In this document: positions 7,899-34,219 of the stretch, piece after piece
How the letters are laid out: the number at the start of each line of letters is the position of its first letter
Numbering within the stretch: position 1 is the stretch's first letter
Virus record (IMG/VR): IMGVR_UViG_3300046689_000327
Span: 1-34,219 of that record
Source: a virus
Length of the DNA: 34,219 bases
Strand: one strand, 5' to 3'
Program-made: the position numbers and the translations under genes
Notes under the pieces: model-generated
Database searches by the model: none
What the model was told of the DNA's origin: nothing
What the model saw: the letters and a program-made list of their open reading frames with translations, nothing else

Positions 7899-8324
7899 TC
7901 AGGTCGAGCCGCCCAGGAACAATTGATAGTCGACGCAGATGAATTTCCAGGGCTGATCTTCCGGCTTGTCCGTCATTGCGATCTTGGGGAAGCCTTCGAT
8001 GAAACCCGTCGGGATCGCCAGAAGCGAGACGCCGTTGCGGTCCCTCACCAGACCCGGCACGACGCCGCCGCCGCCGTCCGTATTGATATCGACTTGGTGA
8101 AGCGTCGATAGCACGTCGTTCGACTTGCTCGAATTCATGAGATGAATCGTAAGCGTGCCGACGCGGCCGTTGATTTTGACGCGCGTGACCTGGCCGTCGA
8201 CGCCCTTGACGACCTTGTATCGGGGGCCGTCTTCTTCGAATTCAATCATCGAGCCGTCGGCGAAGCCCGACATAGTGAAGCCGCCGACGATCACGTCGAC
8301 CCGAGCAGGATCCCAATTTTGCAT
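7899..8324 (-). CDS. Tail tube protein (DUF3277-like)
   Basis: A 141-residue protein. The pattern NWDPARVDVIVGGFTMSGFADGSMIEFEEDGPRYKVVKGVDGQVTRVK and the later TLTIHLMNSSKSNDVLS is that of phage tube proteins grouped with DUF3383 sheaths. It would stack in hexamers inside the sheath. It lies directly after the sheath gene, and GGAAAGGA precedes ATG 8324. Confidence 0.82.
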   Translation of the reverse strand: MQNWDPARVDVIVGGFTMSGFADGSMIEFEEDGPRYKVVKGVDGQVTRVKINGRVGTLTIHLMNSSKSNDVLSTLHQVDINTDGGGGVVPGLVRDRNGVSLLAIPTGFIEGFPKIAMTDKPEDQPWKFICVDYQLFLGGST

Positions 8325-8358
8325 AGCTTAGCTGTCCTTTCCTCTGAGGTCGAAGGGA

Positions 8359-9708
8359 TCAGGTCCCGACGGAGATACTGATTGGCGAGACTAGGTGGAC
8401 CGCGCCGGCCAGGGTCACGCTACCGGCGATCCCTGTGAGCTTGCGCGCGGCTCGGTCCGCGCTTGGCACGGCTGAGCGCGCGGGCACCGTCAGGATCGAG
8501 GCCCCCTTGACGAATCCGCCATTCGCTTCGCCTTGCAGCTGGACGGCGGACAGCGCGCTGTAGATCTGCGAAATGCCGTGATCGTCGAATGGCACCTTGT
8601 CATTGTTGAGCAAGGTTTGCACGATGCCTTCTTCGCTCCGGATTCGGTACCAGTCGAGCAGGCGCACGACGTCGGCGAATTCGCCGCCGAATACCTTGCC
8701 GTCGAGCGTATGATTGACGCCGGCCGTCGTCTCGTACACGACGTAATTCTTGGCGCGCAGGTTCGTTTTCTGCGTCGCCGTCAGATTCGAGACCGGCACG
8801 CCGACTAGGCCCTTGAAGGCGAACGTGCCGCCTGCGCCCTGCGCGCCCGGGTCGAACGGGAAGCGTTGCGCGAGCATCGCGACGCCGGTGTAGTCGCTCG
8901 TGTCTTTGAGGCAGAAGCCGCCGATCACGCGGCCCGCGCTGAGGCCCTTGAGCACGAAGCCGACGTCGGTCGTCGCGACGGAATCGAATGCCTTCGAGTC
9001 CGACGTGTTGCAGCCGAGCATCGCGACGATCGTCTCGACGTAGGCGTCGACCTGCTGCAAAATCGCGTTCGCGTTCAAGCCGATCACCAGACCATACCAG
9101 TCGGCGTCGACGTTGCGGATCGCCGCGAGATCCGCCTGTACACCCGGGTCCGGCGTCACGTCTTCGAAGCTGAGATTGTCCGTCCAATTCCTGAAGTAGA
9201 AAACGTCGCCGGCAATGTCCGCCGTGACGGCGCTTCGCGTGGTTCCGTCACTCGCGGCCGCCGTGGCATGCGAAGAGATCGCAGACGCAAGGGCTTCGAA
9301 AGCGGAGGCAAGGCCCGTCACGATTTCCGCAACCGTCGCGCTCGAATCGCTCGTATAGGTTACGTCGTAGGAGACGCCCTTATATTCGACCGTGTAGCCG
9401 TAGATCGTCGAATTGACGGCGGCCACCGGCGTCCACTTGACGACCTGCGTCCACGGCGTGGCAAGTCGTAGGACCTTCACACTCACAGGGCGATTGGGCT
9501 TCTGTGCGAACGCCCGGGCGGCCATCTTGTAGGCATGCTCCCAGGTCGTGAAGCCGTCGAGTACCATGTCGCCGAGGCTCGTGTAGGTCCGCGACAGGTC
9601 CGTATTGTGCGTATGATACGCCGCGAGCGCGAGCGTGCCAAAACCGACTTGGGAGATCGCGGGTGCTTCCGTCGATAGCACGACGTTCGCCATATCTTCG
9701 AGGCTCAT
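8359..9708 (-). CDS. Contractile tail sheath protein (DUF3383-like)
   Basis: A 449-residue protein. Features of the DUF3383 sheath family include an N-terminal VVLSTEAPAISQVGFGTLAL, an insertion domain, and a C-terminal GVNHTLDGKVFGGEFADVVRLLDWYRIRSEEGI region. Sheath subunits polymerise around the tube and contract on infection. This defines the virion as a myovirus. GAAAGGGATC gives a strong ribosome site before ATG 9708, and the tube gene follows. Confidence 0.88.
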   Translation of the reverse strand: MSLEDMANVVLSTEAPAISQVGFGTLALAAYHTHNTDLSRTYTSLGDMVLDGFTTWEHAYKMAARAFAQKPNRPVSVKVLRLATPWTQVVKWTPVAAVNSTIYGYTVEYKGVSYDVTYTSDSSATVAEIVTGLASAFEALASAISSHATAAASDGTTRSAVTADIAGDVFYFRNWTDNLSFEDVTPDPGVQADLAAIRNVDADWYGLVIGLNANAILQQVDAYVETIVAMLGCNTSDSKAFDSVATTDVGFVLKGLSAGRVIGGFCLKDTSDYTGVAMLAQRFPFDPGAQGAGGTFAFKGLVGVPVSNLTATQKTNLRAKNYVVYETTAGVNHTLDGKVFGGEFADVVRLLDWYRIRSEEGIVQTLLNNDKVPFDDHGISQIYSALSAVQLQGEANGGFVKGASILTVPARSAVPSADRAARKLTGIAGSVTLAGAVHLVSPISISVGT

Positions 9709-9722
9709 AATTGATCCCTTTC

Positions 9723-10367
9723 TTATCGGGTGCCGACTGCTACGGCCATGTCGAATGTTTCGAGTGTGCCGACCGGATCGTCGATCGCCGAGTCGGCCGC
9801 GTTGAACACAATCTCAAACAGAGCGACGCTGACCTGTCGGCCGTTGTCGTCCTTGTAATCCGTCGTCGTCGACTTGCTGATCTCACGCCAGCCGAGCCCG
9901 ACCGCTGCTAGCGCGTCGCAAATCGTCGGCAGGCCGCGCCCGGTACGGACGCGCTCCAAAAGCGGGTGCGCGCTATGCCCGTTGGATTGATCGAAGCACT
10001 CTACCTTAACCTGGATCCGAAGCCCTCGGTTACCGGTCGTCTCGTAGACGATGCCGCCCAAGGGCGCGCCGGGCCCCGCGTAGGTATCACCGGGGATTAC
10101 CGCGTCCGGATCGTAGGTCTTGCGCCACTCATCCCAGCCGATCCCTTCGATCCCGAGCACGTCCCATGTGATGCGCGCTTGTGAATTGGACGCGCTCAGG
10201 CGTACCGTGTGGCCGTCCTTGTCGGTGATCGTGCCTTCGCCGATCTGCCCGAAGAATGCCGACTGGTCGTCGCCTTGCGCGACGGGGATCCCCGAGAGCG
10301 TGGCGAAAATCGCATTGAACGCGAGCACGATCGCGTCGAAGTTTTGGGAGAGCGGCACGAAAGTCAT
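9723..10367 (-). CDS. Neck / tail terminator-like protein
   Basis: A 214-residue protein starting at ATG 10367 (MTFVPLSQNFDAIVLAF), which overlaps the previous stop by ATGA. The frame continues upstream, but that part shadows the preceding gene. Size, N-terminal helix, beta-rich body (GIVYETTGNRGLRIQVKVECFD) and position before the sheath fit a neck or tail terminator protein that caps the tail and joins the head. Family identity is by analogy only. Confidence 0.6.
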   Translation of the reverse strand: MTFVPLSQNFDAIVLAFNAIFATLSGIPVAQGDDQSAFFGQIGEGTITDKDGHTVRLSASNSQARITWDVLGIEGIGWDEWRKTYDPDAVIPGDTYAGPGAPLGGIVYETTGNRGLRIQVKVECFDQSNGHSAHPLLERVRTGRGLPTICDALAAVGLGWREISKSTTTDYKDDNGRQVSVALFEIVFNAADSAIDDPVGTLETFDMAVAVGTR

Positions 10368-10873
10368 GCGGCCCCCGAGGCCGCGCCTGGCACGACGACA
10401 TGCGAAATTGATCCGACGAATTGGCCCGAGTTTATCAGCGCCGTCGTCTTGTCTTCGCCCTTGCGGCGTTGCGTCGCGGCCGTCACGGGCGGCGCGATGC
10501 CAGCCTGAATCCGCTGGACGATGCCGCCGACAATCGAGAGTCCGACGAGATCGAGTCCCTGCTCCGGCGTCATAGCGCCGGCCTTGACCTGCTTCGCTAC
10601 GCGCCGCAGACGTTCGGTGATCTGCTCCCGTTCGGCGTCGACGTAGCCACGCAGCCAAGATCGGATCGGTTGGCCTAGTCCGAATTCGAAGATCTCGCCC
10701 AGCTCGCCGACCGTGATCCCGCTACTGGGCTCGCCGTCTTCGGCCTCGTGGACTTGCGCAGCCTTCTCGCCCAAGAGGCCGACACGCACACTAGCGCCGG
10801 CCGCCGCGCGCGCGATGCGCGCGTGTAGGGCTCGGTAGCCGTGATCCGTGTCGGTGACATGGGCTCGGGTCAT
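10364..10873 (-). CDS. HK97 gp10-like tail completion / neck protein
   Basis: A 169-residue protein. The C-terminal ALINSGQFVGSISHVVVP is a variant of the LIDTGQLxxSI motif of gp10-like (Mu gp37-like) completion proteins. The N-terminal ASVRVGLLGEKAAQVHEAEDGEPSSGITVGELGEIFEFG also fits that group. GAGGAGACC precedes ATG 10873. It lies between connector and terminator genes. Confidence 0.7.
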   Translation of the reverse strand: MTRAHVTDTDHGYRALHARIARAAAGASVRVGLLGEKAAQVHEAEDGEPSSGITVGELGEIFEFGLGQPIRSWLRGYVDAEREQITERLRRVAKQVKAGAMTPEQGLDLVGLSIVGGIVQRIQAGIAPPVTAATQRRKGEDKTTALINSGQFVGSISHVVVPGAASGAA

Positions 10874-20581: not shown

Positions 20582-20788
20582 TTAGACCTGCGCCGAATCT
20601 GCGGGGCTCGCCGGCACGACCGGGTTAGAGCCCCAGGCGTCGATCCAATGCACGACGGCCGCGACGCCGGAGGCCAGCAGGCCTTGAGCATAGGTCGGCA
20701 GGCTGGGCGAGACTGCGTGTGCGACGGCTACCACGGCCGCGGCCGCGGCCGCGGCCAGGGCGGAAGATGCTAGTTTCTTGTAGTTCAT
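20582..20788 (-). CDS. Holin candidate, two-span membrane protein
   Basis: A 68-residue protein from ATG 20788 with a very strong ribosome site (GGAAAGGGATC), one base after the nucleotidase stop. After MNYKK there are two hydrophobic stretches: an Ala/Val helix (about 6-26) and a second (about 32-50, YAQGLLASGVAAVVHWIDAW), then a Pro/Ala tail. Size, charge pattern and two spans suit a class II-type holin. No endolysin gene is found nearby, so the lysis role is inferred from topology only. Confidence 0.55.
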   Translation of the reverse strand: MNYKKLASSALAAAAAAAVVAVAHAVSPSLPTYAQGLLASGVAAVVHWIDAWGSNPVVPASPADSAQV

Positions 20789-20789
20789 T

Positions 20790-21374
20790 TCAGATCCCTT
20801 TCCTTTGGTGCGCACGAGCTAGCCGCGCGACTTCGTCGATTACTGCGTCGTAGTTCAAGCACCGGACGACGGCCGGCGCAAGCGGTCCGATCCTGTTCCA
20901 GGGGCGATCGGCCAGGATCGGAACGGACGCCGGCCGGTGCGTGGCCCAGTCGTTGACGTTGTGAAGCGCGTCGTCGATCAAGACGTGCGCGTCAATCCAG
21001 TGCTTGCGGGCCCAGGGGCAGATCTGATCGGGCGCGAAGCCGAATCGCCTTTCGAGCCATCGAATGCGCTCCGGGATCCAGTGGGGCGCGCCCTTGTAGG
21101 GGCTCGTAACGACGACGACCTCACCCAGCTTGCGAAGCTCGGCGACGAGATCTTGAGAGCCGGGGATCTCGTTCATGGTCGAAACCTGCCCCGGCTGGGC
21201 GATCCATTCCGAGAATGGCTTCCACAGATCAGGCAGGCCCCACGATTTGAAAATGTTGAAATCGTGGATCTGATCCTTCGATCTCAAGTGCCCGCGGTCA
21301 GCCGCGAATTCGATCGTCTTGCCGACGAAGTCCGACAGGATCTCGTCGCAGTCGAGCGCGATTCGGAACTTCAC
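20790..21374 (-). CDS. 5'(3')-deoxyribonucleotidase-like HAD phosphatase (NT5C family)
   Basis: A 194-residue protein. HAD motif I is near the N-terminus (ALDCDEILSDF, Asp8 nucleophile and Asp10). Motif II is in EVVVVTSPYKGAP, and an ARKHWIDAHVLIDDALHNVNDW region supplies motif III and the acidic metal ligands. Family members dephosphorylate deoxyribonucleoside monophosphates. Together with the diphosphohydrolase-like gene it may shape the dNTP pool. ATG 21374 overlaps the upstream stop. Confidence 0.8.
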   Translation of the reverse strand: MKFRIALDCDEILSDFVGKTIEFAADRGHLRSKDQIHDFNIFKSWGLPDLWKPFSEWIAQPGQVSTMNEIPGSQDLVAELRKLGEVVVVTSPYKGAPHWIPERIRWLERRFGFAPDQICPWARKHWIDAHVLIDDALHNVNDWATHRPASVPILADRPWNRIGPLAPAVVRCLNYDAVIDEVARLARAHQRKGI

Positions 21375-21763
21375 AGCCGCGGCCCTCCGCGGCGCGCGAC
21401 CTTGGCTGCCACGCGCTCTTGATAGTCGGCCTCCCGCTTGAGTCGGGCTCGCTCGCGCAAGGCGGCCAGGTCCGCGCGTGCGAGCGCGCGCGCCTGCGCC
21501 ATCACACGATTCTCGATCGCGCGTTTGGCTTGGACTTCGTCGGCGTGCCGATCCATGGCATCGACGCGCGCGCGGAACGTTTTGATCCCGCGCACGAAGC
21601 GGCCGGCAAAGAGATCTTGTAGATCGTCGGGCAGATCCAGAAAGGCCGGATTCTCAGGTGGTTCGGGGAGGGCTAGCGGATCGTGCGAATTCTCCCAATA
21701 GCCGGGCGCGCAATCGATGCCCGCTACGCGCACAGCCACGCTGTCCGGATCGTAGGATCTCAT
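21371..21763 (-). CDS. Hypothetical protein with charged coiled-coil tail
   Basis: A 130-residue protein from ATG 21763 (MRSYDPDSVAVRVAGIDCAPG), ribosome site AGGAGGGGATC. The first ~45 residues are beta-like and Pro-rich. The last ~70 are a long Ala/Arg/Glu helix (DEVQAKRAIENRVMAQARALARADLAALRERARLKRE), likely a coiled coil. I do not recognise it. It overlaps both neighbours by ATGA in the nucleotide-metabolism cluster. Confidence 0.6.
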   Translation of the reverse strand: MRSYDPDSVAVRVAGIDCAPGYWENSHDPLALPEPPENPAFLDLPDDLQDLFAGRFVRGIKTFRARVDAMDRHADEVQAKRAIENRVMAQARALARADLAALRERARLKREADYQERVAAKVARRGGPRL

Positions 21764-22449
21764 TTCGCGATCCCCTCCTGCGCTTCCAAGGCCTTCTCGA
21801 GAAACGCGAGCGCGCGCCAAGCGACCTTGGCGAGGTGCGGGACGCCGTCAACGTCAATCGCGAGCGGCGCATAGGGCGCCTGCGCCGATCCAATCGTGTG
21901 CGCCAATTGGTCGATCAAGTGACGCACGAGCGTGTTGACTTCGTCGGTGCTTTTCTCGCGGGCCCAATGAAGCGGCTCGCCCGGATTGTGCTGATCGTTG
22001 CCAGCCTTGCTACACGCGGCCACGGCGGCCATCGCGCGCGGGAAGTAGGCTAAGACGCCGGTCGCGATTGGTAGCGCCTTACGCGCGTCGTAGCCGGTAG
22101 GCAGGGCCGGCGTACGCGCGAAGCCTTCCTGGCGCACGACGTCGGCCGGAACGGCGTGGACGTCGGCCCAGCCTGGCGCGCGCGGCCGGAGCTTCAAGAC
22201 GTCGCCCGCTTCGATCTGCACCGGCAGGTTAGGCGCGATGATCCCATTCACGACAAGCTGATAGCCCTCAGGGACTTCGACGACGCGCGCACTATGGCCC
22301 GAAACGAGGAGATCGAATCGGTGCGTCAAATGCACGTCGAGAAATTCGGCGCAGATACAGCCGCCGACAATGCAGCAGCCAATGTTACCCGTGTGCGCGC
22401 TCCGACCGTGGTTGCAACCCAGCCGGCTGCACATGTCTTCGCGGCTCAC
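21760..22449 (-). CDS. Zinc-motif + dATP/dGTP diphosphohydrolase-like protein (DUF5664/MazZ-like)
   Basis: A 229-residue protein. The chosen start is GTG 22449, which overlaps the TGA of the 21-residue peptide gene; ATG 22434 is an alternative. Upstream in-frame sequence shadows other genes. Domains: a Cys/His cluster (CSRLGCNHGRSAHTG, then CC, CICAEF; about 7-35), a beta segment (about 40-100), and a helical C-terminal domain (YFPRAMAAVAACSKAGNDQHNPG, PLHWAREKSTDE, VDGVPHLAKVAWRALAFLEKA). The last fits the dATP/dGTP diphosphohydrolase (all-alpha MazG-type) family. It probably hydrolyses purine dNTPs. Confidence 0.72.
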   Translation of the reverse strand: MSREDMCSRLGCNHGRSAHTGNIGCCIVGGCICAEFLDVHLTHRFDLLVSGHSARVVEVPEGYQLVVNGIIAPNLPVQIEAGDVLKLRPRAPGWADVHAVPADVVRQEGFARTPALPTGYDARKALPIATGVLAYFPRAMAAVAACSKAGNDQHNPGEPLHWAREKSTDEVNTLVRHLIDQLAHTIGSAQAPYAPLAIDVDGVPHLAKVAWRALAFLEKALEAQEGIAK

Positions 22450-22511
22450 GATCGAACCGTCAAGAGTGCGACCAGTACCATGAACGCCAGCACGATAATC
22501 ATGTCGGACAT
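22446..22511 (-). CDS. 21-residue transmembrane peptide
   Basis: A tiny frame from ATG 22511 to TGA 22446, product MSDMIIVLAFMVLVALLTVRS: one membrane helix with a short charged start and an Arg near the end. AAAAGGA (22526-22520) sits eight bases upstream, the start overlaps the small terminase stop (TAATG), and the stop overlaps a GTG of the next gene. The chained overlaps and the ribosome site argue that it is translated. It could be a pinholin-like or coupling peptide; function unknown. Confidence 0.6.
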   Translation of the reverse strand: MSDMIIVLAFMVLVALLTVRS

Positions 22512-23050
22512 TACTCAGATCCTTTTGCGATGGCTTCAAGCGCAGGTCGAAGATCTTCCAGCGCCTTCCGCGTCTCAGGATCCATTCTACTCAGGTCGAC
22601 GGCCAGGTCAACCCGCTTCGTAGGTTTGCCAGCGGCTAGGTTGCCCTGCGATCCGGTCTCGCGCATGAACCGGGCTAGCTCCGCCGGTGACATGATCGGC
22701 TGACTCGCGGTCGCCTGGCGCGCCTGCACGGCACGCAGCTCGGCGATCGTGATCTCGGCGGCCATGTCATTGATTAGCGCCTGCTGCTGGGCCCAACGTT
22801 CGGCCGCGTCTTTATTGATCTTCTGGTATTCGGCGTCACGCGCGCGCGACTGCGCCTTGTCGAAGTCGTCTACCCGATCCTCCCAAAACCAAAGTTCTGA
22901 CCAGCGATGCAAGGTCGCGAAGCACGCGCGGCAGGCCCGCCCGGTCGCCGCGATGGATCGTGTCGGGCCCGACTCGCGGTAAAATTGAAACGCCTGGTAG
23001 GCGTCAGCGGGCTCGCCGTTGATCTGATCCCATGCGGAAGGCTCGGCCAT
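22511..23050 (-). CDS. terS: Terminase small subunit
   Basis: A 179-residue protein. The N-terminal region (EPADAYQAFQFYRESGPTRSIAATGRACR, then LHRWSELWFWEDRVDDFDKA) is a helix-turn-helix DNA-recognition domain as in phage small terminases. A central coiled-coil oligomerisation region (AEYQKINKDAAERWAQQQALINDM) and a charged C-terminus follow. It recognises packaging sites and stimulates the large subunit, encoded four genes downstream. The first gene after a hairpin/promoter region. Confidence 0.8.
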   Translation of the reverse strand: MAEPSAWDQINGEPADAYQAFQFYRESGPTRSIAATGRACRACFATLHRWSELWFWEDRVDDFDKAQSRARDAEYQKINKDAAERWAQQQALINDMAAEITIAELRAVQARQATASQPIMSPAELARFMRETGSQGNLAAGKPTKRVDLAVDLSRMDPETRKALEDLRPALEAIAKGSE

Positions 23051-24733: not shown

Positions 24734-26413
24734 TCACCAGCCGGCCGAGAGTGCCGCGCCTGCTACCAGGCCGCCAAGCGCGTCGGCCGCCGCGGGTCCG
24801 TCGTGCAGGCCGTCGGGCTCATACGGGCCGTCGGGCTCGGAAACCATGATCCGCGAAGCGCTCGCTAGCCCTGGCTGAGCAGCGCGCGCCGCGGCCCAGT
24901 TTGACCCGTGCGGCGTTACCGCCATTTGCGCGAAGATTGTGCGCTCGGGCAATCCCGTGCGCGCGTAGAAGTAGCTGAGCGCGCTATCCGTTTTGCTAAC
25001 CCAGGCGTTGACATGCGCGAGATCGCTAATTGCCTCGGCCTGCCCCTGATCCCACCAAAGGTAGCGGAATTTGCCGCCGCGCGCAATCGCGTCCTGTGTA
25101 CGCGCGACCATAGATCCCATGAGAGAATTACGCAGGCCAAAGCCGCGCGGGAAGGCTGGATCCCAAATCGCCCAAAGTACGCCGCCCGATTGCGGCGGAA
25201 CGATGCCCGAGCCGCCGAGCATGCAAGGGACGATCACGAGAGGCCGACCGCTCGCGGCCGCGATCTGATTGGCCATCGCGATAGCGTTACCATACGACTT
25301 GAGCGCGGCCGGATTCTCGAGTGAGATCAGATCCGTTTGATTGGTTGGATCGTCATACTTGGAAACGGCTGCCTTGTAGACGTTGTCATTGCCCAGCTCA
25401 AGGATCCCGCTCGTGAAGGTCAGTGAACCCGCGCTCGTGTAGTTGCTGTTCTGACTCTGTCCGCCGATCACGATGAAATCGAAGTCTGCGGGCAGCGTGA
25501 TACCTGCGGCTACGGTCGCGGCTGTGCTAGGCAAGGTCTGCGGCGCCGCCGGCAACGCGAGCGACGGATACCGCGTGCGCGCGTAGGACCAAACGCTAGA
25601 CCGCGTCGGGTCCGCCATTTGACCCTCGTAGATCAACGCTTCCGCGATATCCACGTCGGCGCGATAGCTCGCGACACCCGTTCCGCCAATCACGACGCCG
25701 ATCCATTGACTGAGATTTCCGGTCGGCGCATTCGTCCACGCGCCGCCGTCGATTGATACCTTCGTCGCCGACGTGTGAAAATAAATCTCGTACAGGTGCC
25801 ATGCGGTCGGCGTGGTTACGACCTGCGATGCGAGCGTGCCCAAGATCTCTACATGATTAGTACCGGAGCCCAGGCGTAGACCTACACCCGATCCGCCAGC
25901 GATCCATGCGTCATGCGGCGTGCCTGCGTAACCGCGCGCTACTACGAATGCGTGCACCGGCGGATAGAAGGTCGGCGCACTCGTCGTGTGTGTCGACTGC
26001 AGAAAGCCGCCTGACGCTTTGCGCGGCTCGTATGCTGCGTGTCCGTCGATTGCCAGGGGAGCCGTCGTTACGGCGCCGCCGATCTCGGTCAGCGCCCCCC
26101 AAGGACAGCCGGCGCTACTCGCGCACTTGTCGACATAGCCGTCGTCCGCCCGATACCAGGCAAGTATCTGCGGGTCCGCTGTCCAGTCAGGCGGCCCTGC
26201 GTCTGCGCCGCCCGTCGCGCCTGCGACGCCGCCAGTCGCGCCAGCTTCGCCAGCCACTCCGCCCATTCCGGCGCCTCCCGTCGCGCCAGCTTCCCCGCTC
26301 GTGCCTGCCGCGCAGGCGCCTAGGCCGACTAGGCCGAATGGCTCGCGCGTCGTCGACGTTTCACAAGCGACGGCGAGCGCCAGCGCTACCAGAAATAACC
26401 AAATCGATTTCAT
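24734..26413 (-). CDS. Lipoprotein with LamG-like domain and sialate O-acetylesterase-like (SGNH) domain
   Basis: A 559-residue secreted protein. The signal peptide MKSIWLFLVALALAVAC ends in lipobox VAC. A Gly/Ala-rich linker (about 36-72) follows, then a LamG-like carbohydrate-binding region (about 75-280; ILAWYRADDGY, WHLYEIYF, ADVDIAEALIYEG). The C-terminal SGNH region has a Ser motif FIVIGGQSQN near 319-328 and DGLHDGP near 538, as in family 6 carbohydrate esterases. Ribosome site GGAAAGGGATC. It could remodel host surface sugars or block adsorption. Linker style is myxobacterial. Confidence 0.72.
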   Translation of the reverse strand: MKSIWLFLVALALAVACETSTTREPFGLVGLGACAAGTSGEAGATGGAGMGGVAGEAGATGGVAGATGGADAGPPDWTADPQILAWYRADDGYVDKCASSAGCPWGALTEIGGAVTTAPLAIDGHAAYEPRKASGGFLQSTHTTSAPTFYPPVHAFVVARGYAGTPHDAWIAGGSGVGLRLGSGTNHVEILGTLASQVVTTPTAWHLYEIYFHTSATKVSIDGGAWTNAPTGNLSQWIGVVIGGTGVASYRADVDIAEALIYEGQMADPTRSSVWSYARTRYPSLALPAAPQTLPSTAATVAAGITLPADFDFIVIGGQSQNSNYTSAGSLTFTSGILELGNDNVYKAAVSKYDDPTNQTDLISLENPAALKSYGNAIAMANQIAAASGRPLVIVPCMLGGSGIVPPQSGGVLWAIWDPAFPRGFGLRNSLMGSMVARTQDAIARGGKFRYLWWDQGQAEAISDLAHVNAWVSKTDSALSYFYARTGLPERTIFAQMAVTPHGSNWAAARAAQPGLASASRIMVSEPDGPYEPDGLHDGPAAADALGGLVAGAALSAGW

Positions 26414-26428
26414 TACTGATCCCTTTCC

Positions 26429-27892
26429 TTATCGTCCCGGGTGGCCTTCAGGCAAGATCCCTAGATCCCAATTACGCCGGATGGCCGCAAAGGCGGCCTG
26501 GTATTGGAGCGCTACCGCATTGTAGCCCCAGCGCGCCACGGCCCGATCTCGCCGCGCCTGGCGCGTGGCCAGGTCTTCGACGGGCAAGGCGAGCCAATGC
26601 GTGAGCGCGGCGCGGAATTCGTGGATCCCGCTGGCCAAGATCCCGTCGCTCTCTTGGACGTGTTCGACGAAGGCCGCGAAGTTTGACGCAATCACCGGGC
26701 ACCCGCTCAGCAGGGCCTCAGCGCAGACGCCGCCGAAGGGTTCATGAAACATGCTTGGCACGAGCGTACACGCGGCCCCAGCGTACAAGGCGCTCAGCTC
26801 GGCTCGGGAATCGACCTTGCCTCGCCAGACAATATTCGGCGCAACCAGACGATCGGACCTCGGCTCGCCGCTCACACATACGAAGTCGATTGAGGGATTG
26901 GAGCCCGCCAATTGGTCGACGATCTCGATCCCTTTGATTGACGACATGCGACCGACGAAAACGCAGTAACGGCGCCTGCGGCCCGCGTTCGCAATGTCCG
27001 CCGCCGGGCCAGTCCAGGCCGGCTCCGCGGCCTCGGTCGACGCTTGCCAATCATCTGCATCATAGTAGTTCGGCACGACTGCGGTCGTCGTCAACGCGGC
27101 GTAATGCGGGAAGGGATCGCCCTTCTCTGTCCCGATGCCGCCGCCGTGGATCGCGCTATGGCGGCCCATGTGCCACGCGCGCCAGGTCTCAGATTCGAAG
27201 ATCCGATACGCGCCCCAAGGTCCGTTTGCGTAGCCGATCCCGGTCTCGATGTGCGCGTTGCCTCGGAACGCGGCGACGAAATCCGGCTGGGGGCTAAAGA
27301 TGTGTGCGACGAGATCGCCCGACTGGATCCGGTGCTTCAGGGCTCGCCGGACCTGCGCAAAAAAGGCGTCTGTATTCTCGCCGTCTTGGTGCGTCGCGCC
27401 GTGCTCGCCGCCAGTCGTCTCGCCGAGCAATCGCGCGCCGAAGTAGTCCAGCAGATCCTTTTCCGAGAAGATCGTTACGTGCTCATCTGCGGTCGACTGG
27501 CTCGCCCCGTTCGAGTACTCGATCGTGCGGTAGCCCGCGAGTCGCGCCACGTCGGGGAAGCGTCGGAGCTTGCCTGTGAAGGCGCAATGATTGAACCGGT
27601 CGTCGGCGATCGTGTGCGCCAAGCCAATCACGTGGATCGTCGGGCGCGCGTCCAGGCGCGCCTTGCGCTCGACCCTACGCGAGTATTGCTGATCTGTCTC
27701 GCCGTAGCCGCGCAGGCCGACCGCGCCGCGCGGCGATTCATCGGGCCGCGACGACTCTTCATGCACCGTGGCGCGGCCACTCTTCTCGAATGCGGCGACT
27801 CGCTCGACTTCGGCAAGGGATCTCGCGGCTGCGTCAGCCTGTGCGTGTCGTAGTGCGTCCAGGTTCGTCGGGCTTGTCTTTGATCGGCTCAT
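26429..27892 (-). CDS. Glycosyltransferase, GT-B fold (GT4-like)
   Basis: A 487-residue protein from ATG 27892. The C-terminal half has the GT4 pattern: YCVFVGRMSSIKGIEIV, PNIVWRGKVDSRAELSALYAGAACTLVPS, then EPFGGVCAEALLSGCPVI (the E-x7-E sugar-nucleotide motif). The N-terminal ~100 residues are charged helix without an obvious family. The sugar and acceptor cannot be told. It is followed by the esterase lipoprotein, suggesting joint action on a surface glycan. The start lies within one base of a predicted +1. Confidence 0.78.
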   Translation of the reverse strand: MSRSKTSPTNLDALRHAQADAAARSLAEVERVAAFEKSGRATVHEESSRPDESPRGAVGLRGYGETDQQYSRRVERKARLDARPTIHVIGLAHTIADDRFNHCAFTGKLRRFPDVARLAGYRTIEYSNGASQSTADEHVTIFSEKDLLDYFGARLLGETTGGEHGATHQDGENTDAFFAQVRRALKHRIQSGDLVAHIFSPQPDFVAAFRGNAHIETGIGYANGPWGAYRIFESETWRAWHMGRHSAIHGGGIGTEKGDPFPHYAALTTTAVVPNYYDADDWQASTEAAEPAWTGPAADIANAGRRRRYCVFVGRMSSIKGIEIVDQLAGSNPSIDFVCVSGEPRSDRLVAPNIVWRGKVDSRAELSALYAGAACTLVPSMFHEPFGGVCAEALLSGCPVIASNFAAFVEHVQESDGILASGIHEFRAALTHWLALPVEDLATRQARRDRAVARWGYNAVALQYQAAFAAIRRNWDLGILPEGHPGR

Positions 27893-27928: not shown

Positions 27929-28134
27929 GGGATCTGGTCGGGCCCCAGGGCGTGGGGCCGCCCCGATCCAGGCCCGCGGGCCTGCGGCTGGCACACCAAG
28001 CGCGCTCGACGTTAAATAAATAATTCCGACGCGATTTAAATAACTCCGAGAAACTGTTTAGACAGAGTCTAAGTGTGCCGCCCAAGCTAACTCGTTGAAA
28101 TCATTCGGATCAGCTATTATCAAGATCCGGCCCG

Positions 28135-28447
28135 CCGTTCGTGTGCCGGCACAGACCCCCTTCTGTGCCGCAAGTGTGCAATTGCTAGAAGTCCGAATTC
28201 ATTCGGCTTTAATCCCATGAGTCAGATGAGTCAAGCTTTTGGAGTCGCTCCCCTACTGGCCGCTAGTAGACAACTATGTACTTGCATTTACAGTGCTACT
28301 GTAATTGATCCTATCTCATCTATCTATTTCTACTCAAAGATCAGATCTCTGACTCATCTGACTCATGGGATTAAAAGCTAATGGTTACGCAATTCGCCGA
28401 ATTGCACACCTTCGGCACACCGAATTAATGTGCCGGCACACGAACGG
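28135..28447. repeat. 313-bp imperfect palindrome with nested inverted repeats
   Basis: The outer 19-bp arms (28135-28153 and 28429-28447) are exact and each contains the self-palindrome TGTGCCGGCACA. The middle arms share GTGTGCAATT (28174; reverse at 28400). The inner 26-bp arms (28208-28233 and 28350-28375) are exact and contain two ATGAGTCA units 9 bp apart. The central spacer is ~115 bp and AT-rich. Confidence 0.85.
28288..28304. promoter_or_regulatory. Operator-like palindrome near the centre
   Basis: TTACAGT-GCT-ACTGTAA, a perfect 7+7 inverted repeat with a 3-base centre. It lies about 5 bp from the centre of the large palindrome. Size fits a dimeric repressor site. Confidence 0.6.
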
Positions 28448-28467
28448 TGGGCCGGTCTATGGCACAG

Positions 28468-28501
28468 AAAAGGCCCGGCGGGAATTAACCCCGCGGGGCC
28501 C
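28468..28501 (-). terminator. Intrinsic terminator of the small minus-strand operon
   Basis: Minus strand: GGCCCCGCGGG, seven-base loop, CCCGCCGGGCC, then TTTT. The stem has one mismatch. It follows the 60-residue protein gene (stop 28532) by ~30 bases. Confidence 0.75.
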
Positions 28502-28531
28502 GTTTTCGGACGCTGCGAACGTAAATGGTAT

Positions 28532-28714: not shown

Positions 28715-28977
28715 TTGCCGTCGCCCGGCGTATCGAGCGCGGCGATCAAGGCGTCGGCCAGGGCCAGGGCGTCGGCCGCAATATCGGCTGGCTCTCGACG
28801 GAGTGCTGGACCTTGGTAGGCGTCGATCATTTTGAGGTAGGGATTGACGGATGCGAGCGAGGCCACGGCCAGCCGTTCGCGCCGCTGCATAGTGCGCCTG
28901 CGCGCGCTCTCCAAGACAGGACAATCGCTCGCGTGCCTGCGCGGATCGAAGCTACCGCACCATTCGCACGCTTTCAC
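28711..28977 (-). CDS. Small zinc-knuckle-like protein
   Basis: An 88-residue protein from GTG 28977 (GTGA overlap). The N-terminus has a metal-site pattern CEWCGSFDPRRHASDC (C-x2-C, His, Cys). The rest is helical (RRERLAVASLASVN, IAADALALADALIAAL). In-frame sequence upstream of the GTG shadows the membrane-protein gene. Unrecognised; possibly nucleic-acid binding. Confidence 0.6.
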   Translation of the reverse strand: MKACEWCGSFDPRRHASDCPVLESARRRTMQRRERLAVASLASVNPYLKMIDAYQGPALRREPADIAADALALADALIAALDTPGDGK

Positions 28978-29372
28978 GAGGCCCCCTTCCGGCGCGTGCC
29001 TGAGCCCAGGCTGAGCGTGCAACCCGTAGCCACGCCGTTGATCGCGACGAGATACGAGAGCGCAGCCACGGCCAGCCAATGCGCCGTGGCTGGGGAAACC
29101 ATGACGCCCTCAAGCAGGACACAGAAGCCGACCGACTTGAACGCGCTAGAGAAAGCGTTTCGGGCCCATTGGAACACGGTTTGGAGCGAGAAGAGGAGCC
29201 CGCCGCCTACGAGGCCCCATGCGCCGGTCGGCGCGAGCCCGCCGGTCGAGGGATCGTGTGCGACGAAGTAGATCGCGATCGGCACGAAGCCGCCGAGCAG
29301 AAACCCGACGGCTAGGGCCAGCCTGTTTCGAGCGGCGAAGGCGCGCTTGACCTGGGCGACGACGCCGATCAT
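28974..29372 (-). CDS. Multi-span membrane protein
   Basis: A 132-residue protein from ATG 29372 (ATGA overlap). After a basic start (VKRAFAARNR) there are about four hydrophobic segments: 18-38, 52-70, 80-95 and 98-118. The C-terminus is basic (SGTRRKGAS). Could be a holin, an exclusion protein or a small pump-like protein; no family recognised. Confidence 0.6.
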   Translation of the reverse strand: MIGVVAQVKRAFAARNRLALAVGFLLGGFVPIAIYFVAHDPSTGGLAPTGAWGLVGGGLLFSLQTVFQWARNAFSSAFKSVGFCVLLEGVMVSPATAHWLAVAALSYLVAINGVATGCTLSLGSGTRRKGAS

Positions 29373-29727: not shown

Positions 29728-30441
29728 ATGCAGTACTGCGGCGGCAAGTCGCGAATCTCAAAAAAGATCGCGCACATTATCTTAGCGGAACGTAGCGGCA
29801 GGATACTCTGGGAGCCGTTCTGCGGTGCTTTGAGCATGACTATCGCGCTGCAGCCAGATTTGGCCTCGGACATACATCCGGGACTGATTCAACTCTATAG
29901 TAGGACAGCGGCAGATCCGAATTGGTTAGACGATTTTGAGTGCTCTGAGCAGGATTATCAGAATGCGCGAGCACTGCCGGATGCCGATCCTTTGAAAGCC
30001 TTTATTGGATTCGGCTGTTCTTTCGGCGGCAAATGGTTTGGCGGTTTCGGGCGTCGGCGAATCACGGCTAAAAATCCGCACAGTGTGTGTCATGTTTCTC
30101 GAGTATCGTTAAAAAAGAGAGTAGCTCAGATACGCTCTGTGCTGTTGCAGTGCCTTCCGTTCGATGCGATTACGCCGAGTGCCGGATGCTTGCTCTATTT
30201 AGATCCGCCGTACTCGAATACGACGCTGGCCGGTTCGACGCCATTCGATCAATCGAGATTCCTAGATCTCTGTGAAAGCTGGGCTCGCGCGGGAAGCATC
30301 GTATTTATTAGCGAGTATGATCTACCAATCGGTAAAATATGCTGGCGAGGCAAACCGCAATGCAGTTTAGGTAGTGGTGTTGCAGGTGGGCAATCTGGCC
30401 GAATTGGCGAAGGTCGTGAAGAAAGGCTATATCGGCTATGA
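29728..30441 (+). CDS. D12-class DNA N6-adenine methyltransferase
   Basis: A 237-residue protein from ATG 29728; the upstream in-frame extension does not look coding. D12-class motifs in order: QYCGGKSRISKKI (SAM motif), WEPFCGALSM, then ASDIHPGLI, catalytic LYLDPPYSN, and a C-terminal SEYDLPIGKICWRGK. Length is normal for small Dam-type enzymes, which methylate adenine (often GATC). Base composition is lower in GC than its neighbours, which suggests recent acquisition. It overlaps the next gene (ATGATG). Confidence 0.85.
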   Translation: MQYCGGKSRISKKIAHIILAERSGRILWEPFCGALSMTIALQPDLASDIHPGLIQLYSRTAADPNWLDDFECSEQDYQNARALPDADPLKAFIGFGCSFGGKWFGGFGRRRITAKNPHSVCHVSRVSLKKRVAQIRSVLLQCLPFDAITPSAGCLLYLDPPYSNTTLAGSTPFDQSRFLDLCESWARAGSIVFISEYDLPIGKICWRGKPQCSLGSGVAGGQSGRIGEGREERLYRL

Positions 30442-31064
30442 TGCGTGTCTCATTGCGACGGCCGGGCCAAGGCGCCGTGCCGACTGTGATTGAATGTAGC
30501 TGGGATCAGGTCGTCGAATTCTACGTTGCGGCCGCGAAGACCCCCGCCCGCGAGCGCGATCCCTCCGGCGTCGGCGGCGACGTGCCGGGGATCGCCTTCG
30601 GCGCGTTCGACGGATCCTTTAAGGTCGAAGCCCTTCGGACTGAAGGATTGTGGGCCATGGTTTGGGATTTCGACGACGTCGGCCAAGTCGAATTCGAACG
30701 GGCCTTGGCCCAAATCCGCGCGGCCTTCAGCCGCGGCCTAGCACATACCACGTGGAGCTTCGGCGAAGCGGGCGTCTGGACGCCAGCGCGGCCCGTACGA
30801 GCCCGCGTCGTCGTGCCGTTTGACGAGCCCTGCCCCGCGCACCAATGGCCCCACGTGTGGCAGGTCTGCGCCGGCTTCGCCCTGGCCGAAGGGGCCGCGC
30901 CCGACGCCCAATGCAAGAACGTCAATCGGTGGTACTATCTCCCGGTGGATAGGATCGACGGACTTGTGCCGCAATGGGCTAGGCCTTGCTGGATCGAGAC
31001 CTGGCCCGAGCCCGTCGAAGCATATGTCGCGAGTTTTCACGAGACGAAAGGTTGGGCTTTCTGA
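30438..31064 (+). CDS. Archaeo-eukaryotic primase-like (PrimPol-type) protein
   Basis: A 208-residue protein. Key motifs: WAMVWDFDDVG with Asp77 and Asp79 as candidate metal ligands, TTWSF (about 104-108), ARVVVPFDEP (about 122-131), Asp156, and KNVNRWYYLP (160-169). The set fits the catalytic core of AEP primases found beside DUF5906 helicases. Here primase and helicase are on separate genes. It would start replication. Full-length PrimPols are longer, so polymerase activity is uncertain. Confidence 0.68.
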   Translation: MMRVSLRRPGQGAVPTVIECSWDQVVEFYVAAAKTPARERDPSGVGGDVPGIAFGAFDGSFKVEALRTEGLWAMVWDFDDVGQVEFERALAQIRAAFSRGLAHTTWSFGEAGVWTPARPVRARVVVPFDEPCPAHQWPHVWQVCAGFALAEGAAPDAQCKNVNRWYYLPVDRIDGLVPQWARPCWIETWPEPVEAYVASFHETKGWAF

Positions 31065-31848: not shown

Positions 31849-31988
31849 GTCGCCACTACCGCCAGCAACGCAAACGACACCGCGCCGCGTGGCGCCGCTT
31901 CACGCGCGTCCTACGCATGCGCGTGAAGGTCCGACTATCCGGCGCGATTAGTTCGATCCGGATCTGCGGGAGCATCTTCGCCCCATGA
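31845..31988 (+). CDS. Small basic protein, MSRHYRQQ family, copy 2
   Basis: A 47-residue protein from ATG 31845 (ATGA overlap) to TGA 31988. Start MSRHYRQQRKRHRAAWRR, then RVLRMRVKVRL: almost all basic. The start is shared with 31066. The stop overlaps the helicase start. Likely a DNA/RNA-binding peptide. Confidence 0.55.
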   Translation: MSRHYRQQRKRHRAAWRRFTRVLRMRVKVRLSGAISSIRICGSIFAP

Positions 31989-33904
31989 AACTCTCCGAGA
32001 TCCTATCGCTCCCGGTGACGGTCGGCGGAGCGGCCGTCGCGCCGGCCCAGCCAGCCGCGCTCGACCAAAGCGACATTATCGGCCATCGGGAGCTAGTCGA
32101 GCTAGCGCAACGCCTGGCCAAGCGCAAGAATGAGAAGCACCAGCAGCTCGGCCGCGCGCTTGGCGCCGTCGTGCGTGGGGCGAGCTTCGCGGCGAAGGGC
32201 TACCGAAATGACACGATGCGCCTGCTCGCGCTCGAGATCCTTGAGGCGTACCCCTACGCCGCGCCTGAGCCGATCGTGGACTGCTTCCGGCTCTCGCTCG
32301 ACGTCATGTCGACGGAAGCCGGGCCGGGCAATCCTGCGCCGAGCATGGCCGAGCTGCGCGGCATGCTGGAACGCTTCCAAGGCGTCAAGCAGGCGAAGGC
32401 CCAAACGACGGCCTGGCTCGGCGGCGCGGTCGCACGCGCGCCTCAGCCAATCCCAGCCGGGGCCACGCTGGCGCCTTTGGTCGACGGGGCGCCGGCCGAC
32501 GCGGGGCCCGGCGCGGCCGCCCAAGCCGCGGACGGTTTCGATTGGCGCAACGTGATCGTGATCGCCGACGGAGAATACTTCGTGCGACACCCGCAGGGCC
32601 GATCGTACCCGTTTCACCTACGGTCGAAAGAGGCCCTTCGGATCGAGCTGCAAAGATCCTTTGCGGATCTGCTTCCCCTCTATGATGAAATGGGCCAGCT
32701 GCGACCGGTGGACGAATTGATTGACGCCTACGCATCGAACGCGCACCAAATCGTATACGACTACACCGCGACGGCCGTCGAATTCGATCCGCACTTGGCG
32801 CGCCTGCGTGTCGGTTTCAGCATGGGCGCCCTTGACCGCGTCGAGATCGAGCCCGAGCCCGACGAGAGAGTCGAGGAGTGGTTGCAGCAAATGGCGGGAG
32901 GCACGGCCGGCGCGCTGGCAGAATTGTATGACTGGATCGCGTCGACGGATCAACGCTACATCGCGCACCCAGCTACGGCCCTCGTAATCGTCGGCGCGCC
33001 GAACATTGGCAAGACAGTCCTAGCGCGCGCGCTGGCGGCCACGTGGGGCGTACGAGAGCCGAGCAAGTTTGCTTATGTGCTGGACCGGTTCAACGGATCC
33101 CTTCGCTCGTGTCCGATCTGGCACGCAGACGAGCGCATGCCCGACGACTTGAACGACGCGACCTTTCGCGAGATCGTCCAGCAGAAGCAACGCGACATTG
33201 AATTGAAGGGTCAAGAGCGCGTACCGCTGAGGGGCTGCGCGCGGATCCTTATCACGCTCAATTCGATCGACGACCTTCGGATCTCCGTCCCTCATGGCGT
33301 CGACGCGGCGCAGGCCTGCGCCGATCGCCTCTCGATCTATCAGGCCGACTCACCCAAGGCGCACACGGCCCTAATGCGACTCGACCGCGACGAAGCCGAG
33401 ATCCTTCAGGTCGCGCGACACCTACGCTTCGTCCAGACGCAGATAGAGCCGCGAGAGAAACGCTTCTACGGCGGCCGCGACGACGGAGCCGCGTCAATGG
33501 CGCCGATCCTCAAGGCTACCGCGGCGCGCTATCCGACTTTCTTCGACGGGATCGCGGACTATCTCGACAATTTCCAGGCCTGGGAAAAGGACTATCACGG
33601 CGGCCCGCCGTCGCCGCTCCGGCCCGGGATGCGCTTCCCAATCTTCGCCGAGGGCGAAAGGATCTGGATCTGCAAGGGCGAGTTTTGCAAGCGCCTGGGG
33701 ATCCCGGACACGGCCCGGCACTTGAGCGAGATGGTATTGAAGCCCTTCCTAGCCGGCGAAGCCGCGCGCGTCTCATGGGGCCCCGCGACGGCTCGGATCC
33801 AGCCCTGGTATCTGCCCTTGGACGCGGCGAAATTGGAGATCGCGACAGGCGCAGATCCCGTACCGGCGCTAGTCCACGGCACACGAAAACGCTTAGGCCT
33901 GTGA
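31985..33904 (+). CDS. Replicative helicase, SF3 / DUF5906-type
   Basis: A 639-residue protein. The ATPase core is typical of SF3/DUF5906 proteins: Walker [13 protein letters not shown] (about 335-344), Walker B-like [11 protein letters not shown] (about 379-389), and ILITLNS (sensor-1/motif C, about 421-428). The N-terminal third is helical with no zinc finger. It probably forms a hexamer unwinding the origin and works with the primase-like protein at 30438. Start overlaps the preceding gene (ATGA). Confidence 0.8.
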
Positions 33905-33959: not shown

Positions 33960-34219
33960 ATGAACGAAATCAGAAATCGTTTCACGGGCGCGGTACTCAA
34001 GACGATCGCGGTGGATACCCTGAGCGACGCGGACCTGAGCGGCGCGGACCTGAGCGGCGCGAACCTGAGCGGCGCGGACCTGAGACACGCGGACCTGAGC
34101 GGCGCGAACCTGAGCGGCGCGAACCTGAGCGGCGCGGACCTGAGACACGCGGACCTGAGCGGCGCGAACCTGAGCGGCGCGGACCTGAGCGACGCGATCC
34201 TGAGACACGCGGACCTGAG
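33960..34219 (+). CDS. Pentapeptide-repeat protein, partial (3' end missing)
   Basis: Frame from ATG 33960, open to the window end (86 codons). After ~20 residues ([16 protein letters not shown]) come A(D/N)LSG-type pentapeptides, mostly ADLSG and ANLSG with RH variants. These fold as right-handed quadrilateral beta-helices. Some family members mimic DNA (gyrase inhibitors such as MfpA and Qnr); others are of unknown function. N-termini like this one recur in phages. The end is missing. Confidence 0.8.
34020..34219 (+). repeat. 15-bp tandem repeats coding pentapeptides
   Basis: About 13 units of 15 bp (themes CTGAGCGGCGCGGAC and CTGAGACACGCGGAC). Identity is high, so array length could vary by slippage or recombination. 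The window ends inside the array. Confidence 0.85.

Follow-up and report, generated by a model that had tools for sequence, protein, structure and literature searches.

A candidate replication origin with facing repeat arrays around an AT-rich core in a contractile-tailed phage encoding an SF3-type helicase

The stretch of DNA analysed here, hereafter the window, is the entire IMG/VR record IMGVR_UViG_3300046689_000327 (34,219 bases, without end repeats). Structural genes, encoding tail fibre, baseplate, tape measure, sheath, capsid, portal and terminase, occupy the record leftward from ~27.9 kb, and a noncoding region extending from the start of a glycosyltransferase gene (27892) to ~28.5 kb separates this block from a second one. 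To the right follow a small leftward membrane-protein operon and, beyond it, rightward genes for a D12-type DNA methyltransferase, a putative primase, an HNH endonuclease, a DUF5906/SF3 helicase and a pentapeptide-repeat protein. The last of these genes (33960-34219, with 14 CCTGAG copies) is truncated by the record end, identifying the right end as an assembly break; as the left end adjoins a repetitive tail-fibre region, the genome is probably incomplete. The tail-fibre gene carries a ~102-bp coding repeat (717-1233) that is arranged differently in a near-identical contig (L041), and the ~126 bp that separate the terminase gene from the NT5C-like gene (20740-20865) are missing from another, otherwise 99.9% identical contig (L042). 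Beside the terminase genes, 5'-deoxynucleotidase-like and dATP/dGTP diphosphohydrolase-like genes (20790-21374 and 21760-22539) have a possible role in nucleotide-pool or base modification.

The noncoding region contains a nested imperfect palindrome (Table 1). Its outer exact arms (CCGTTCGTGTGCCGGCACA, 19 bp, 28135-28153 and 28429-28447) span 313 bp, its inner exact arms (TTTAATCCCATGAGTCAGATGAGTCA, 26 bp) lie at 28208-28233 and 28350-28375, and as a gapped inverted repeat the structure reaches somewhat further out. The first-pass annotation of this DNA, which proposed a replication origin here, had placed the palindrome correctly, along with an AT-rich spacer of ~115 bp, an operator-like palindrome at its center, two ATGAGTCA units per arm and two AT-rich 12-mers, all of which are present. 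It had also counted eight TGTGCC hexamers on both strands; the array stands, with nine copies in 27990-28467. These are arranged as a left and a right set and an outlying copy, and each set includes a near-copy, TGTGCA ~11 bp past the last TGTGCC on the left and TGCACA at 28403 on the right, giving spacings of 22 and 11 bp in the left arm and of 11 and 21 bp in the right arm. Two TGTGCC pairs make a self-palindrome, TGTGCCGGCACA. Exact copies of ATGAGTCA occur only four times in the whole window, all of them in the arms. The central palindrome, with a fold z of only -1.5, is weak on its own. Outside the arms, the two AT-rich direct repeats are a candidate second repeat class or melting site.

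Table 1 Features of the element and its surroundings (window coordinates).
Feature	Position	Strand	Details
Left arm, nested palindrome	28123..28233	+	gapped inverted repeat with 28350-28459; exact 19-bp and 26-bp blocks
Right arm, nested palindrome	28350..28459	-	gapped inverted repeat with left arm
AT-rich spacer, candidate melting core	28234..28349	.	116 bp
Operator-like central palindrome TTACAGTgctACTGTAA	28288..28304	.	fold z = -1.5
Left TGTGCC iteron set	28074..28180	+	28074(+), 28142(+), 28148(-), 28164(+)
Right iteron set	28403..28466	-	GGCACA (TGTGCC on -) 28414, 28435, 28461; TGTGCC(+) 28429
Outlying TGTGCC copy outside arms	27990..27995	-	
ATGAGTCA doublet, left arm	28217..28233	+	9-bp pitch
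ATGAGTCA doublet, right arm	28350..28366	-	9-bp pitch
Two AT-rich direct repeats AAATAA(t/c)TCCGA	28018..28049	+	AAATAAtTCCGA (28018), AAATAAcTCCGA (28038), 20 bp apart
Glycosyltransferase gene, left flank	26429..27892	-	not conserved in relative
Small membrane-protein gene, syntenic marker adjoining element in both phages	28974..29372	-	70% identity over 63 aa to relative 10580-10852
Terminator-like hairpin and T-tract, closes membrane-protein operon against element	28464..28508	-	-25.9 kcal/mol, z = -3.6
Candidate AEP-like primase, weak assignment	30438..31064	+	phrog_3228 E = 0.0027
SF3-type helicase, candidate initiator	31985..33904	+	DUF5906 E = 2.6e-6
Small terminase gene	22511-23050		

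Both the palindrome and the hexamer array are well in excess of chance. The palindrome alignment scores 108, compared with at most 33 in any of 500 dinucleotide shuffles. It is by far the best of the window, the next being a tail-fibre coding repeat (49); among the other scanned phage sequences, leaving out one artefact from a run of N, the best score is 53 (phage Mu). For the hexamer, the nine copies compare with a best count of at most 6 (mean 3.6) in shuffles. As single-stranded DNA the element folds with a z of -16, and a search against Rfam returned no match, indicating no known RNA. The window reaches its highest AT content over 100 bp (65%) and 150 bp (60.7%) from 28286 and 28266, respectively, and over 50 bp (70%) from 28011; ranked by AT content, the first and second 100-bp stretches of the record (starts 28286 and 28011) both fall within the element. 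The cumulative GC-skew, suggested earlier as a check, has its minimum at 28421, inside the element. However, third-codon-position skew tracks the coding strand and not the side of the element, so that the skew is confounded and the minimum adds little as origin support.

Terminase and capsid searches identified one related contig that reaches the place of the element, IMGVR_UViG_3300025939_000018 (L032, G003), with 64% identity in the major capsid protein and 48% in the terminase. Terminase, capsid and membrane-protein queries against genomes returned none reaching this place, near-identical contigs end before it, and no relatives were found via the helicase (viral and genome collections, plasmids, and phages at the default cut-off), the glycosyltransferase or exact arm patterns. 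Gene order is collinear between the two phages across 8.6-24.3 kb of the window, beyond which the left-flank genes are wholly different, and past the element the membrane protein is again homologous. Between these markers the relative has its own array, in which GTGTCA occurs nine times in 10104-10483 (shuffle maximum 5) and mostly faces inward, all four left-hand copies pointing rightward and four of the five right-hand copies leftward. The left-arm copies start at 10104, 10125, 10168 and 10201, and together with ATGTCA near-copies at ~10147 and ~10190 are set at steps of 21, 22, 21, 22 and 11 bp. The most AT-rich 100-bp stretch of the relative sits between its two arrays. In this single relative, the earlier suggestion that repeats should be conserved at the same place in related phages is borne out by an equivalent inverted array at the syntenic position.

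The repeat word itself is not shared, as TGTGCC is absent from the element of the relative and GTGTCA from that of the window. A DNA alignment of the two elements is no better than shuffles, so that their homology rests on place and layout. The inverted-repeat alignment of the relative is marginal (31 against 28 in shuffles; fold z = -3.1), and we conclude that conservation lies in the location, the pair of facing arrays and the AT-rich core more than in an extended hairpin. As the left-flank genes are unrelated, the element has been kept independently of its neighbours. An 8-mer common to both cores, GATCCTAT, was considered as a leftward -10 box and rejected, since the two regions share 11 8-mers, and several are expected by chance. 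From the conserved block up to the element, the two phages differ in a way suggestive of a cargo-exchange site, window 24734-27892 (acetylesterase, glycosyltransferase) being replaced in the relative (8018-10034) by a trypsin-like protease, a 235-aa protein and a predicted coiled-coil protein. The gene for the latter (9564-10034, minus strand) adjoins the element and has no counterpart in the window; its product, whose N-terminus may form a winged helix, could be a DNA-binding partner of the element. The contig of the relative stops ahead of any replication gene.

The window, in contrast, extends into the replication genes. The product of 31985-33904 (639 aa) matches PF19263 (DUF5906) above the gathering cut-off, a domain also carried by the BPP-1 primase-helicase, and its helicase core (residues 300-458) gives weak tblastn matches to phage primase-polymerases, in line with the earlier assignment as an SF3-type helicase. 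It is a separate ORF without a Pfam primase domain. The AEP-like primase that was proposed alongside it is backed by one weak profile match of the 30438-31064 product (phrog_3228, replicative helicase-primase), and not by Pfam, which gave no match. The start of the SF3 gene lies 3.5 kb rightward of the element, and the gene reads away from it, placing the element 5' and not 3' of the gene. Two structure predictions without alignment reached a pLDDT of 35-36 (helicase 35), too low to judge whether a winged-helix DNA-binding domain is present. None of the scanned ORFs was recognised as a phage polymerase.

Run on P4 and lambda as a positive control, this hexamer scan puts P4 crr at the top, followed by P4 ori, and places the O-iterons of lambda second; the P4 type-1 repeats are spaced at 10/11/22/43/10, comparable to the element. 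The highest-ranking noncoding hexamer cluster of P22 and of BcepC6B is attP or the integrase region, and coding repeats surface elsewhere, so that a cluster alone is no proof of an origin. The best palindrome of BPP-1 falls at the stem-loop place proposed for AEP-SF3 replication. In two phages with SF3 primase-polymerases that weakly match the helicase of the window, the gap after the replicase gene is the AT maximum of the stretch read and carries a phage-specific word, AATCTA/ATCTAA in Stenotrophomonas phage QDWS359 of the Bradleyvirinae (L056 20991-21620) and CTCAGA in Xanthomonas phage YB23 (L057 3226-3853); judged from these features, both gaps are candidate origins. TP901-1 (L051 36041-36435) has a noncoding palindrome scoring 48 and an ATCAAA cluster upstream of a Fic-family gene.

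Comparison to established systems reveals partial likeness to several. Origins of phage-inducible islands (PICIs) always consist of two iteron sets flanking an AT-rich region, a split-iteron layout described as unique to these satellites (PMC6092414), and the element shares with PICIs and SaPIs the two short-iteron sets around an AT-rich region, the element-specific iteron and an initiator-type helicase gene in the genome. It differs in lying 3.5 kb 5' of that gene, whereas the PICI origin is immediately 3' of rep, in belonging to a contractile-tailed phage and not to a satellite, and in having arms that are mirror images over ~110 bp. P4 ori and crr similarly combine 8-bp repeats in both orientations and near helical spacing with a second, AT-rich direct-repeat class. 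Within the arms of the element the 11 and 21-22 bp steps agree with helical spacing, while gaps of 68 and 26 bp do not. P4, however, uses a pair of cis sites and an alpha protein in which a TOPRIM primase is fused to SF3, whereas this incomplete record has no second TGTGCC cluster and the putative primase and helicase are separate ORFs. The P4 comparison drawn in the first-pass annotation suits the repeat layout, but the element does not adjoin the helicase gene and a scan for a second crr-like site was negative.

For AEP-SF3 replicons such as pRN1 and BPP-1-type phages, a large inverted repeat conserved in structure and not in sequence has been proposed (PMC4234260). The element resembles those of pRN1 and Bordetella phage BPP-1/BIP-1 in being a large inverted repeat near a putative AEP-SF3 module, with the AEP weak here. 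Structural rather than sequence conservation would be a further parallel, the inverted repeat being strong in the window (z = -16) and marginal in the one relative (z = -3.1). The BPP-1 arms contain a doubled 9-bp unit as well. Yet the BPP-1 stem-loop has 48-nt arms and an 8-bp loop, lies 3' of the gene and is without a hexamer array, as opposed to the 116-bp core, two arrays and location 5' of the helicase gene found here; the placement 3' of the replication gene typical of pRN1 and BPP-1 is thus not seen. The QDWS359 and YB23 gaps, whose function is putative, agree in coinciding with the AT maximum of the stretch read and in a repeated word differing between phages, and depart in their weak palindromes (scores 31-32) and other location relative to the helicase gene. 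On these comparisons, the element may work like a PICI or P4 origin, yet differs in position or number of sites, which would make it a look-alike and not a member of either group.

The main rival to an origin is a late-operon regulatory region, which we regard as unlikely overall. The element would then hold a leftward late-operon promoter, with a phage protein on both arrays looping the DNA and the central palindrome serving as operator, and the repeat word would turn over since regulator specificity diverges between related phages. Both adjacent operons run leftward, so the left block needs a promoter about here, the terminator-like hairpin closes the upstream operon, the central palindrome resembles a repressor operator, and the relative encodes its coiled-coil protein, possibly with a winged helix, right beside its element. 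However, promoter-like matches there do not exceed the chance level, a promoter would not require two arrays spread over 300 bp around the AT maximum of the record, neither a repressor nor a lysogeny gene was recognised, and the coiled-coil gene lacks a counterpart in the window. It is improbable that the element serves in packaging (cos/pac) or partition, as a binding site for the small terminase subunit or for a partition protein. Repeat arrays are used by packaging and partition systems alike and the gene for the small terminase lies on this side too, but the element lies 5 kb upstream of that gene (~2.7 kb in the relative), while cos/pac is normally in or beside it, and no gene resembling ParA or ParB was recognised. 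An attachment site, the repeats being arm-type integrase sites around a core, has slightly less in its favour still: it would fit the clusters found in P22 and BcepC6B, yet the large ORFs of the window and the relative (both incomplete contigs) include no integrase or excisionase, and symmetry over 110 bp is unusual for attP arms. Least credible is a MITE-like mobile inverted repeat functionless for the phage, since, although parts of the arms match almost exactly, as a recent inverted duplication would leave them, the relative has a counterpart of differing sequence at the same place, the window holds no further copies and no transposase was recognised.

Taken together, we propose that the element is probably the replication origin of this phage, a reading based on sequence and held with reasonable rather than high confidence. 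It is favoured by the anatomy, the excess over chance, the counterpart in the relative, the P4 and lambda controls, the parallels to SF3 replicons and the presence of an SF3 gene 3.5 kb away. Against it stand the placement 5' of the helicase, unlike PICIs, BPP-1 and pRN1, where the origin is next to the gene on its 3' side; the single relative, whose contig ends before the replication genes; and the marginal inverted repeat of that relative, the integrase-region clusters in P22 and BcepC6B and the low pLDDT values. The origin proposed in the first-pass annotation is hence partly supported, the array of the relative and the skew minimum being favourable and the skew test itself weak.

Protein binding, melting and firing at the element would, we infer, proceed as follows. 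Two mostly inward-facing sets of initiator-binding repeats, at near whole-helical-turn spacing within each arm, would flank the AT-rich core. The most likely initiator is the SF3 helicase or a small partner protein; loaded on both arms, it would melt the core, allowing two helicases to assemble. The nearby putative primase would then prime synthesis, and extension would likely fall to the host polymerase, which we propose because no phage polymerase was recognised among the scanned ORFs.

More tentatively, and with the balance of probability somewhat against it, the two phages may represent a contractile-tailed lineage with a PICI-like split-iteron origin, in which layout and place persist while the word switches from TGTGCC to GTGTCA, placing related phages in separate origin-compatibility groups. 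To our knowledge, replication origins have yet to be located in most metagenome phages. If the proposal is correct, two inward-facing arrays of a single word around an AT maximum, located between the late and the replication block, would constitute an origin signature for SF3-helicase phages. A repeat word that can be replaced with the layout kept would make both the co-evolution of initiator and origin and the compatibility of co-infecting phages testable. The layout described as exclusive to satellites (PMC6092414) would then extend to full phages.
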